Shown here one piece after another: positions 1,274 to 5,016 of a stretch of 64,000 nucleotides of DNA (its first letter is position 1; each line of letters begins with the position of its first letter). Location of the stretch: contig JAPDRO010000001.1 in the NCBI GenBank assembly GCA_030247885.1, positions 930,001-994,000 of the forward strand. Reading direction: 5' to 3'. This DNA is from Taxawa tesnikishii (nom. ined.) (taxonomy: Eukaryota; Ascomycota; Dothideomycetes; Dothideales). The notes below the pieces were generated by a model. The model was not told the DNA's origin and did not search any database. It worked only from the letters and a program-made list of their open reading frames with translations. Position numbers and translations under genes: made by a program.

Positions 1274-1468
1274 CGAGGTCAGAATGGATGCGAAAGCAGG
1301 ACTGTTCACCTTTCCCTTCATGGAAGATAACCCTCAAACCGTTCACGTTTGCAACTGTCCCTGGTCAAACGTACAAGCTGGGTTCGGCTACACTTTGGTA
1401 GCGCCGAAAGAGTATAAGCTGTCGACTTTGCAGATTGCTTCAACAGCAGCTGACCAATCAGCTTTCAT

Positions 1469-1669
1469 GACGAGATGGCCGTAAGTTCACCTTACCACTT
1501 GCATTCTCAGTCATATCCTTACAAACCATCCAGGAGCGGTCCAAGGCGCTGTCTCAAGGTGTCCCGATTTTGAAACCGACAGTCCGAGAGGGGAAGCCAA
1601 GCTGACGTTCGAACTCACATCAAGTTCTAACGTTCTCAACAGGCGTGGGTTCGAATCACACTCTCCTCA
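1469..1669 (+). tRNA. tRNA-Leu(CAA)-like gene with three introns
   Basis: The parts of a leucine tRNA lie in order. The 5' acceptor GACGAGA is at 1469-1475, followed by TGGCC. Next comes a 53-nt insert, 1481-1533, that starts GTAAGT and ends CCATCCAG. The D arm resumes with GAGCGGTCCAAGGC. The anticodon stem CTGTC (1549-1553) pairs with GACAG (1578-1582), and a short intron of about 18 nt contains TTGA, complementary to UCAA. The variable arm TCCGAGAGG (1583-1591) is followed by a second insert, 1592-1642, ending CAACAG and containing TCTAAC. The T arm is GTGGG-TTCGAAT-CACAC and the 3' acceptor is TCTCCTC plus A. The acceptor has one mismatch and the T stem one. One base seems missing between anticodon stem and loop if the anticodon is CAA. 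The second insert begins GG, not GT. It could be functional or a decayed copy. Confidence 0.6.
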
Positions 1670-1814
1670 ACATCTCTTTTATTGTGTGTCTCCTCATACA
1701 ACAGCTTCCTTTATGGATATTTTGCACTTTCATATGATTCCAATCTCCGTAACACATGACAACCAACGCAAAGAAACGCCTGCACCGGCGTTGACTAGCC
1801 TATCATCCGACCTG

Positions 1815-1900
1815 TATGGTCTCCATTGGTTAGGGTACGTGCTTGTGCCCTTCATCTTTCGCGTTCCATGTTAACAAAGGAACAGATTCCTCACTTTCAT
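1815..1900 (+). tRNA. tRNA-Glu(UUC)-like 5' half, interrupted
   Basis: A D-arm sequence close to the eukaryotic tRNA-Glu A box, TGGTCTCCATTGGTTAGG, lies at 1817-1834. It is followed by a 51-nt insert (1835-1885) that starts GTACGT, contains GTTAAC and ends AACAG. Removing the insert joins GGTTAGG to ATTCCTCACTTTCA, which matches the tRNA-Glu anticodon arm with anticodon TTC. I could not identify a matching 3' half: the sequence after 1900 gives no clean anticodon-stem partner, T arm or acceptor strand. This may therefore be a partial or decayed gene. It lies between the Leu and Pro loci on the same strand, which supports the reading. Confidence 0.35.
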
Positions 1901-2035
1901 AGCTCTTCCTGATCCGAAGCGGCCGGCGTCCAATTACCCACCACGGAAATCGATTTTTCCTTTTCTGGACTAGGTGTTATGAAGTGTTTCTACGGTGGAA
2001 CAAGTTCTGGCAAAACGAATGCTCAGCAACAAGCG

Positions 2036-2242
2036 GTGCTTGTGGTTAGTACATCGGGTCTTACTTCACCGTCAATCGTACTGACTCCCCAGTTAGATCA
2101 AGCGGTATGGTTCTCGCTTAGGGCATACCCTAAGTATAAACTTCATTGCATGCGAGAGGGTACGTTCATATCCTTCTGTAGATTCATCGGTCCAACAACT
2201 AACTGTCCATCATAGTCCCGGATTCGATCTCCGGCAAGGCCC
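2036..2242 (+). tRNA. tRNA-Pro(AGG)-like gene with three introns
   Basis: The 5' acceptor GTGCTTG (2036-2042) and TG are followed by an insert from 2045 that starts GTTAGT, contains ACTGAC and ends CCCCAG or, four bases later, TTAG (2096). The D arm ATCAAGCGGTATGGT follows; ATC pairs with GGT. The anticodon stem CTCGC (2113-2117) pairs with GCGAG (2152-2156), and the loop TTAGGG carries a 27-nt intron (2124-2150) containing CCCTAA, complementary to the anticodon region, as in ordinary tRNA-Pro introns. After AGG comes a 56-nt insert, 2160-2215, starting GTACGT, containing CTAACT and ending CATAG. Removing it gives the standard AGGTC variable loop and a perfect T arm, CCGGA-TTCGATC-TCCGG. The 3' acceptor CAAGGCC pairs at five of seven positions. 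Confidence 0.6.
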
Positions 2243-3258
2243 GAATTTTTGAGTCCTCCATCGTTCATCCGCGCCGATTTTGGTGTGTATAGCGTCGTTG
2301 ACACTGCGCTTGGCACGCGTAACGAAGATTGCAAGGAAAAAGGTGATTTCTGTAACGTACAACTCAACGCCGGCCGCCTCGGATCAACAGGAGCTGTGAA
2401 AGCGAGGAATCTGTTCCTTTATCAATACGGGATCTCCTTTCCCCGTGCGAAGGGGTTGCTAGCATGGCGGTTCATGCTGAAGGGTTCTAAAAGGCTCGTC
2501 GAGTGCTGTGGCGCACCCTTACTATCAGATACCAGAATGCGTTCTGGAAGGTAAACTTCCTGACGATGTCTGCGACGCCCAAGGCTAGAGCAAAAGCTCA
2601 AGTGCCCGAGGAGCCTCGATAGAGAAGGATGCACTTCGTTTTCGTTAGCTTTCCTATACAAAAGGCCAAAAAGAGAACTCGCTCTTGCACAGCTCCATGT
2701 CTCCGATGGTTGGTTCAAGAGTGTTGCGCGCAAGAAACAGTGTCTGCAAGTTTGAACTTCTCCAGTACCGTATTGACGAGTGCTCGGTCGAGCAGCGGGA
2801 ATCTGTAGCCCGGATCGTGCTCGCCCTCCTACGTGAATGGGTTCTGCTGTCGGGATGTGCTCCTCCTTCCTTGCGGATCATGAATGCATTTGTGGCGTTC
2901 GATTGGCGAGGCGCGTCTTGCGCATGATGTGGGTTACGGACGGGCATGCAACTGGAACAGTAGTAGAGCAGGGGACCCTGGGAGTGATTGTAGGATAAAA
3001 AGGTGTCTTCGACTTCTCTGGATTTCTAGCAATGAGTCTTTGGGTGACAGAAGGGGTGAATCGGTGCTTCACTTCACCCAGACCCCTTGTCAATGTTGGC
3101 CAGCCCGCGATCACGTCGAGCAGCGCGCCGATACGGAGCCACCAGCGCCAGCTGGATCCTTCTGGCTCCCCGTGTTCGCCCTCGAGCACCTCCCGTCTCA
3201 TCAAACCCCCGACGACCGAAGATGTTCCCTTGGGATGCTCGACCACTCTTTTCTTCTC
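2243..3258. other. Intergenic, no gene recognised
   Basis: Several open frames cross this kilobase on both strands, but none has a recognisable domain, a good start context or codon use like the neighbouring genes. The right end is the 3' side of the dynein light chain gene. I see no fourth tRNA with any confidence. Confidence 0.5.
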
Positions 3259-3651: not shown

Positions 3652-5016
3652 GGCTGCTGGTGGAGGTAACGATGGTAAACAAGCTCAACGTGGCGCCGGG
3701 GATGGATTAGTGGGTGGTGGGCGAGAGAAGAGGAAGAAGTCGAGAAGGAAGAATATATATCAGGCGAGGCACATGCTACCTGCAGCTTCCGCTTCTACCC
3801 CGTAACAATATGATATGTCCCACTGATGCTAGCAATGACAAAAGTGCGTATACATGTCTCTTGCAGCTGGAACAATGGGTAGGTAGGCGGTAGAACTGCC
3901 AGCGGGACCCGTTTACGACGATGGCTAACTTGCGCTTTCGCGTGTAACGCGCTTCATGCTTCATGCTTCATCCCCGGATTTCTATCGCAAGCCAGTCACA
4001 ATGCTATACAAGTCCTTGATACGTAGTATAATTCTAGAACAGGGCCTTGGTCTTCTGCGCATCTATGCTAAGAGGACCACCAGGAGCGCAGTAGATACGG
4101 CAAGCCAGAGTGACTGCGCTCTACGTAGAAAAGTCTTCGGCTTGCAATAGTAGCTTAGGTAGTTTCGCGTATCCCTCGTTCCTGACGTGATCATGGCTGC
4201 GCGTTACTCTTGCACACGAAAACAGCGTTGACGCGTGGCAACACCGTCCCTTTTGCGTGTAATAATAAGTATGGACTCCTGCATCGTAGCAATAGCATGT
4301 GCGTGTCAGGACACGGTGCCTTGAGACCGCCTTCTGGAATCGACAGTATTGGCCGTATGCTCTCAGGGCTTCTAGAGGTACCGATTTCTTAGCACGCTAC
4401 CCCCCACCACCTCTATGGGCATCCTTCTGGGATCATGTACAACGTGACGCCTCGTCCGGCTTGTTCCTGTCGGAATGAGAGTCTTCTTCAAGTACAAGCG
4501 GACAGCGTGCTGCGGTAAGGGTAAAGGCAGAGGCAGAGGCAGAGGCAGAGGCAGAGGCAGGAGCTGGTTGCTTCAAGCCAATCGCAGCCTGTAAAGGCCG
4601 ATCGGGTAGGCTTTCCTGTCTGTTCCGCTAGAACCTCGGCGGTCGTCCCGAGGCAGTTGGCCAATCAAAGGGCCAAGTAAACGCATGTGCAAGCCAGTGC
4701 GGACAAGAGATGCATTGACGACACTGCTCGTCTTCTGTACTCAAAGTCCTCCAAACTTCCAGTGCAAGCAAGAACTGCATTTGCATTGGTATTGACGACA
4801 ACCCTCGACTGCTCTTGGTCAAATCTTCCCCGTCTGGCAAGCTCCAAGTTGCTCCGGTAGACGCCCAGTCCTTGTCCCGCGAATTGGCTTGTCGCTAACC
4901 TCCAGCTCACTCCAATTCAGTCCTGGAGACATTGAGCCTTCGATCCGGAACCACAAACTCCGTCGCTAAGAGGCGGGCTTTCTTGCAGTTTGCCATCAAT
5001 CCCACATCCACCCACC
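3652..5016. promoter_or_regulatory. Divergent promoter region, dynein light chain / VTC1
   Basis: No coding frame here looks real. The stretch separates two divergent starts and must hold both promoters. It includes a hexanucleotide tandem repeat at 4525-4560. I see no other distinct motif. Confidence 0.5.
4525..4560 (+). repeat. (AGGCAG)6 microsatellite
   Basis: Six perfect tandem copies of AGGCAG lie in the divergent dynein light chain/VTC1 promoter region, 457 bases before the VTC1 start codon. Confidence 0.95.

Follow-up and report, generated by a model that had tools for sequence, protein, structure and literature searches.

A probable class of nuclear tRNA genes with spliceosomal introns in addition to the anticodon intron, and its decayed-looking copies in a 64 kb window

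Introduction

Three tRNA-like loci for different amino acids lie on the forward strand at positions 1469-2242 of the DNA analyzed here (the window, a single stretch of 64 kb), as originally predicted, and each is interrupted away from the anticodon loop by one or two inserts, measured at 51-56 nt. The locus raises the question of what these inserts are, and whether tRNA genes built in this way are in use or are remnants. Nuclear tRNA introns have so far been taken as removed by the tRNA endonuclease alone. From comparison of sequences, it is very likely that the genome holds a class of nuclear tRNA genes with spliceosomal introns plus an anticodon intron, that these would be spliced from RNA polymerase III (Pol III) transcripts, and that the window holds decayed copies of such genes.

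Results

The features of the array are listed in Table 1. The anticodon-loop introns of the three forward-strand genes were about 15-27 nt by reading. For the five spliceosomal-type inserts, GT..AG ends with a 5' splice-site consensus were present in 4 (the exception was Leu insert 2), and the branch motif [CT]T[AG]A[CT] was present in 4 (the exception was Leu insert 1, with CTTAC, which this motif does not cover). An insert was found at the same position as Leu insert 1 in two intact genes elsewhere in the genome (L051 and L053). Leu insert 2 starts with GGAAGC where its counterpart in intact L051 has GTAAGT, and it is not spliceable under the GT-AG rule, because it starts with GG. The 3' end of Pro insert 1 was best set at TTAG, and the resulting exon matched the intact copies base for base. 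At the start of this insert (window 2043-2057), 15 bases (TGGTTAGTACATCGG) were the same as the tRNA-Met D arm in L039 and L041, possibly by chance.

Table 1. Coordinates of tRNA-like genes, inserts and anticodon-loop introns in the window.
Feature	Position	Strand	Remarks
Apparently decayed tRNA-Leu(AAG-type) gene, two spliceosomal-type inserts and anticodon intron	1469..1669	+	Intact paralogue L051 (contig C31)
Leu-like insert 1, GTAAGT..CAG, 53 nt, after tRNA position 12	1481..1533	+	
Leu-like anticodon-loop intron, 18 nt	1560..1577	+	Aligned by eye with paralogues
Leu-like insert 2, variable arm, 51 nt, branch motif CTAAC retained	1592..1642	+	
Apparently decayed tRNA-Glu(TTC)-like gene, one insert and anticodon intron	about 1814..1948	+	
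Glu-like insert, GTACGT..TTAAC..CAG, 51 nt, near D loop	1835..1885	+	
Apparently decayed tRNA-Pro(AGG)-like gene, two spliceosomal-type inserts and anticodon intron	2035..2242	+	Intact paralogues L060, L061, L062
Pro-like insert 1, GTTAGT..CTGAC..TAG, 52 nt, after tRNA position 9	2045..2096	+	
Pro-like anticodon-loop intron, 27 nt	2124..2150	+	
Pro-like insert 2, variable loop, GTACGT..CTAAC..TAG, 56 nt	2160..2215	+	
Second apparently decayed tRNA-Glu-like copy, inverted	2367..2420	-	89% identity to forward-strand copy over 54 nt

ARAGORN, and Rfam at the gathering score, reported no tRNA in the 64 kb window; with a lax Rfam threshold, one weak tRNA match was obtained (16.8 bits, 1588-1669). 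When the inserts were left out, ARAGORN gave tRNA-like folds for the Leu and Pro copies and no tRNA for the forward-strand Glu copy. The anticodons printed by ARAGORN were CAA for the Leu copy and TAA for its intact relative; by D-stem register, the anticodon of the Leu copy was read as AAG, with C at position 33. The mature tRNA of the Leu copy differed from that of L051 at 7 sites, vs. a single difference between intact L051 and L053, and the changes included one acceptor mismatch, one T-stem mismatch and the loss of U33. The Pro copy had an extra G in the acceptor stem and five substitutions, and it scored 36.5 bits with an insert-tolerant covariance model, vs. 56.1-57.6 bits for the intact Pro genes, which were part of the training set of that model.

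The window loci are not chance resemblances, because Leu and Pro relatives with the same insert positions were found on other contigs. Judged by their substitutions and the lost splice site, the copies look decayed, and most of the array would be a graveyard of recent date; it is conceivable that the Pro copy still works. A graveyard of tRNA pseudogenes had been named as the alternative to the original prediction, and it fits the window array (stem mismatches, lost splice site) and is improbable for the intact relatives elsewhere. A degenerate tRNA-Thr-like fragment was also observed directly 3' of a tRNA-Ser(AGA) gene (L050, about 4620-4680), a further indication that the genome contains tRNA pseudogenes.

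Relatives were searched for in the assembly (29.4 Mb, 34 contigs), which is apparently fungal, judging by its size, its introns and the original prediction. A genome-wide DNA search with window 1400-2700 as the query returned 10 matches, namely the query region, the inverted Glu pair within it, and sites on contigs C31 (two loci), C12, C13, C10 (two pieces) and C8; the six matched loci beyond the window were tRNA-Leu or tRNA-Pro genes. Further loci were picked by pattern search using the Leu T arm and the Pro anticodon arm. In total, 18 stretches were read, with tRNA genes in 13 and none in 5 (L054-L056, L067 and L068). A tRNA-Gly(CCC) gene (L031), in which an intron of 55 nt separates positions 53 and 54 within the B box, was found untargeted, using a covariance model with learned inserts that was run on 43 nuclear sequence sources.

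Among the intact nuclear tRNA genes read, a non-random sample, 7/36 carried a total of 11 spliceosomal-type introns of 52-57 nt, and all seven retained the anticodon intron. The seven comprised three Pro-AGG genes, two Leu-AAG genes, one Leu-CAG gene and one Gly-CCC gene. Of the 36, 20 were obtained in a search that favored uninterrupted tRNAs, in which 63 of 926 candidates were scored, and 13 with the Leu and Pro patterns; the other 3, for Gln, probably Ala, and Gly, turned up by chance. The decayed-looking window Leu and Pro genes, the two Glu-like copies and the Thr-like fragment in L050 were left out. The original prediction was supported in part, in that spliceosomal-type introns occur in tRNA genes at several positions and in several families, alongside anticodon introns, and intact versions exist.

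By family, the five intact Leu-AAG genes carried two spliceosomal-type introns (L051), one (L053) or none (L052, L057 and L058), and of the three intact Leu-CAG genes read, L059 had an intron after position 15 and L045 and L046 had none. Each of the three intact Pro-AGG genes (L060, L061 and L062) had two introns, at the positions seen in the window copy. All four Pro-TGG genes were without spliceosomal-type introns. Ordinary copies for the same anticodons, the existence of which had been raised with the original prediction, were found for Leu-AAG (3/5) and Leu-CAG (2/3) and for none of the Pro-AGG genes read. For the latter, 9 places matched with up to 2 mismatches and 8 were read, comprising 4 AGG with introns (window copy included) and 4 TGG without; no intron-free Pro-AGG was among these 8 of the 9 places, the other being C12:1971172, with 2 mismatches. 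An intact Glu gene with the intron of the window was not found in a genome search with one exact pattern, which is a weak search. A DNA search with Gly, Pro and Glu pieces in spliced form gave no further matches, but the known Pro genes were missed by it too, so that this result carries no weight. Contig C12 holds both an intron-bearing gene (Pro-AGG, L060) and intron-free genes (Leu-AAG, L057; Pro-TGG, L064 and L065); therefore, the difference is not one between two mixed genomes.

Insert boundaries in L051 and L053 were fixed without splice rules, by comparison with the intron-free L052, L057 and L058, and fell on GT..AG with an ambiguity of a base or two. A start of GT[AGT]NG[ACT] with an AG end was present in 11/11 inserts of the intact genes, and the branch motif [CT]T[AG]A[CT] was present in all 11 at 9-13 nt from the 3' end. 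Both signals occurred together in 15/1925 (0.8%) GT..AG frames of 51-57 nt in the window, and this contrast is descriptive, as the insert motif was settled after the inserts had been read. Protein-coding intron candidates of the same genome were found by reading frame, with the branch motif in 108/868 GT-AG pairs vs. 88/1746 (5%) for random AGs. The 80 coding introns kept were chosen on the motif and form an impure set, which serves only for length (median 60 nt) and branch distance (mode 11-12 nt); in this impure set, the branch distance was shared with the tRNA inserts and the lengths overlapped. An iterative splice-site model was dropped (weak sites had accumulated in its training set, and its scores for the tRNA introns lay in the background range).

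For the in-silico splicing scan, signal-bearing GT..AG frames of 48-62 nt were removed singly and in near pairs across 39 nuclear sources. The 195 signal-bearing candidates gave 213 splices and 9 junction-spanning tRNAs, all of them in the seven genes. The control, 3857 signal-less frames (15% sample), gave 3 junction-spanning tRNAs: L051 spliced out of register, a splice next to the intact gene of L057, and an unexplained case in L036. In the untargeted part of the scan (the window plus twenty 10 kb stretches), the Gly gene alone came up. Removal of the inserts from the intact genes gave complete tRNA structures. Spliced Pro genes were misnamed by ARAGORN with the anticodon intron left in, and were named Pro(AGG) once it was taken out, as was the Gly gene as Gly(CCC).

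The motif CTAAC just upstream of a T arm was found at 18 places genome-wide vs. 21 in the reversed control, i.e., with no excess. At least 7 of the 18 coincided with the listed places that have a T arm plus T-run, and one more was L051. Of these eight, 4 were attributed to the anticodon loop of Val(AAC), an identity that we presume from Val sequences, 2 were the known Gly and Leu genes, and 2 were left undecided. Two further places, C29:1335694-1335725 and C30:248232-248255, have a branch-like CTAAC immediately before a T arm plus T-run.

Conservation was compared among the three intact Pro-AGG genes. After splicing, 60/60 pair cells were standard, and 4 pairs, all in the acceptor stem, were altered on both sides, which was reached by 5/500 shuffles. 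In the DNA, two spliceosomal introns and the anticodon intron separate the halves of this stem, which are ~190-200 nt apart. The 57-nt cores, which exclude the acceptor stem, were 100% identical; the anticodon introns were 93% alike and the spliceosomal introns 61-65% identical. Similarity of insert 2 was no more than that of shuffles (P 0.14-0.53), and that of insert 1 was weakly more (P 0.000-0.023). Identical cores and a compensated acceptor stem, together with introns of near-random similarity, are the pattern expected under purifying selection on the spliced product. In thermodynamic folding, most minimum-energy folds of the Pro forms, spliced or unspliced, were not cloverleaves. The yeast tRNA-Pro(UGG) reads all four codons, so Pro-AGG is not claimed to be essential.

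The same comparison bears on the view that every intron-bearing tRNA locus, in the window or elsewhere, is a pseudogene that acquired introns and has gone out of use. The decay of the window copies and the presence of intron-free Leu-AAG and Leu-CAG genes would agree with it. However, dead copies would decay like their introns, which the Pro-AGG cores and compensated acceptor stems have not done, and the Pro-AGG places read offered no intron-free gene in their stead; this view is therefore considered improbable.

For transcription, T-runs of ≥4 started 1-8 nt past the 3' end in 6/7 intact intron-bearing genes, with no T-run within 50 nt of the 3' end of the remaining one (L053), and T-runs of ≥4 were present within 12 nt in 27/29 other intact tRNA genes. 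The original prediction had called for transcription by Pol II, which the T-runs do not support. Sequence at about 20-40 nt upstream was A/T-rich in both intron-bearing and intron-free intact genes. In the Pro and Leu genes an intron interrupts the A box region, and in Gly-CCC the B box; both were interrupted together in 0/7, and none of the intron-bearing genes had uninterrupted A and B boxes throughout, as read from their sequence. In these features the intron-bearing genes resemble Pol III genes that have A/T elements upstream. Splicing of a Pol III transcript by the spliceosome has a precedent in fission yeast U6 (PMC10484740), and yeast can excise a lichen spliceosomal intron from Pol I rRNA (PMC8527467).

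Discussion

The favored explanation is that of functional tRNA genes with one or two short spliceosomal introns each, in the acceptor/D region, the variable region or the T arm. Such genes would be transcribed by Pol III, as the T-runs suggest. The spliceosome would then excise the GT-AG introns, to which the splice signals and selection on the spliced product point. The restored tRNA body would be a substrate of RNase P and RNase Z and of the tRNA splicing endonuclease and ligase, and the endonuclease would take out the anticodon intron after the spliceosomal step, because the tRNA body exists only then. It is also rather likely, if less firmly held, that part of the tRNA set would be made obligately via two splicing machineries, with two spliceosomal excisions and one endonuclease excision needed for every usable tRNA-Pro(AGG). 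Points against the favored explanation are the intron-free copies present for 2/4 affected families (Leu-AAG and Leu-CAG), the missing T-run of L053, the iterative splice-site model that did not set the tRNA introns apart, the lack of a CTAAC excess upstream of T arms, and the negative exact-pattern search for an intact Glu gene with the intron of the window.

The original prediction also drew on introner-like elements, by which spliceosomal introns would have been spread into the tRNA genes. Such elements are known in fungi, and the intron positions differ between families, as spread of this kind would have it. Nevertheless, comparison of 120 intron pairs gave one strong similarity (z 5.5), between the paralogous Leu intron 2 of the window and of C31, an inherited pair; the next-best pairs had z of 3.6 and below, in part due to shared signals, and the genome-wide search with the array matched only itself and tRNA-Leu and tRNA-Pro loci. 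Introner-like spread is thus very improbable. It is also very improbable that the inserts are ectopic bulge-helix-bulge (BHB) introns cut by the tRNA endonuclease, since, although the host genes already hold the usual anticodon intron and ectopic BHB introns exist in other lineages (e.g., the tRNA genes of the red alga Cyanidioschyzon merolae), the inserts of the intact genes have GT..AG ends, the 5' splice motif and a branch motif at a near-fixed distance in 11/11, none of which the tRNA endonuclease needs.

Spliceosomal excision from Pol III transcripts, the reading retained, was compared with known systems. Eukaryotic anticodon (BHB) introns are present in the same genes at their usual place; the inserts sit elsewhere in the tRNA and bear spliceosomal signals. 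Red algae have ectopic and permuted nuclear tRNA genes, with introns away from the anticodon loop that are processed at BHB motifs. The present introns share the location outside the anticodon loop and differ in having GT-AG signals in place of BHB motifs.

In fungi, U6 is a Pol III transcript with mRNA-type introns (PMC10484740), and U3 is also termed Pol III-transcribed in PMC5832005, according to which no small structured RNAs other than U3 and U6 were, as of 2017, known to carry introns often. The likeness to fungal U6 and U3 lies in normal spliceosomal introns within a short structured RNA; here, in contrast, the host is a tRNA that carries one or two of these introns, and its anticodon intron calls for another splicing system as well. 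Spliceosomal introns comparable in length (57 bp in one instance) also occur in the nuclear rDNA of lichen fungi (PMC8527467), again in a non-Pol II transcript, but that transcript is a Pol I product, an rRNA, and is without a second, tRNA-type splicing pathway.

No report of spliceosomal introns in tRNA genes was found in the open-access literature, which was the scope of the search (subscription papers fell largely outside it), as far as the text of its articles was available. The word stem "spliceosom" was absent from the accessible portion of a review of tRNA introns (PMC4090602), and there was no mention of spliceosomal introns in tRNA in those portions of two papers on unusual introns that were available (PMC11782384 and PMC13149111). 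The elements are known, i.e., spliceosomal introns and introns in Pol III genes, and their combination in tRNA is new as far as we have seen.

If true, the U6, U3 and rRNA cases would be extended to the most abundant Pol III products. Translation capacity would be tied to the spliceosome, with the supply of decoding tRNA dependent on its acting on Pol III transcripts, and the internal promoter boxes, held to be required by tRNA genes, would be broken by introns. Standard tRNA finders would miss tRNA genes in such genomes. As the same tRNA occurs with and without an intron in one genome, intron gain and loss become directly testable.

Additional observations

Three U6 matches were found (C19:390845-390903, C23:1835706-1835764 and C33:874318-874378), and all three span only positions 1-66 of the 105 in the Rfam model. 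Two pattern searches for the 3' part of U6 found none beside the three matches; an interruption in the internal stem-loop would fit matches that end at model position 66.

Contigs C25, C26 and C28 look mitochondrial, and the tRNA matches of C25 form a mirror repeat. A plastid identity for C25 was rejected, as the open frames of its loci read as mitochondrial. The atp9-like product has NPALRGQ in C25 vs. NPSLRGQ in C26 and, because these differ, two mitochondrial types may be present in the assembly.
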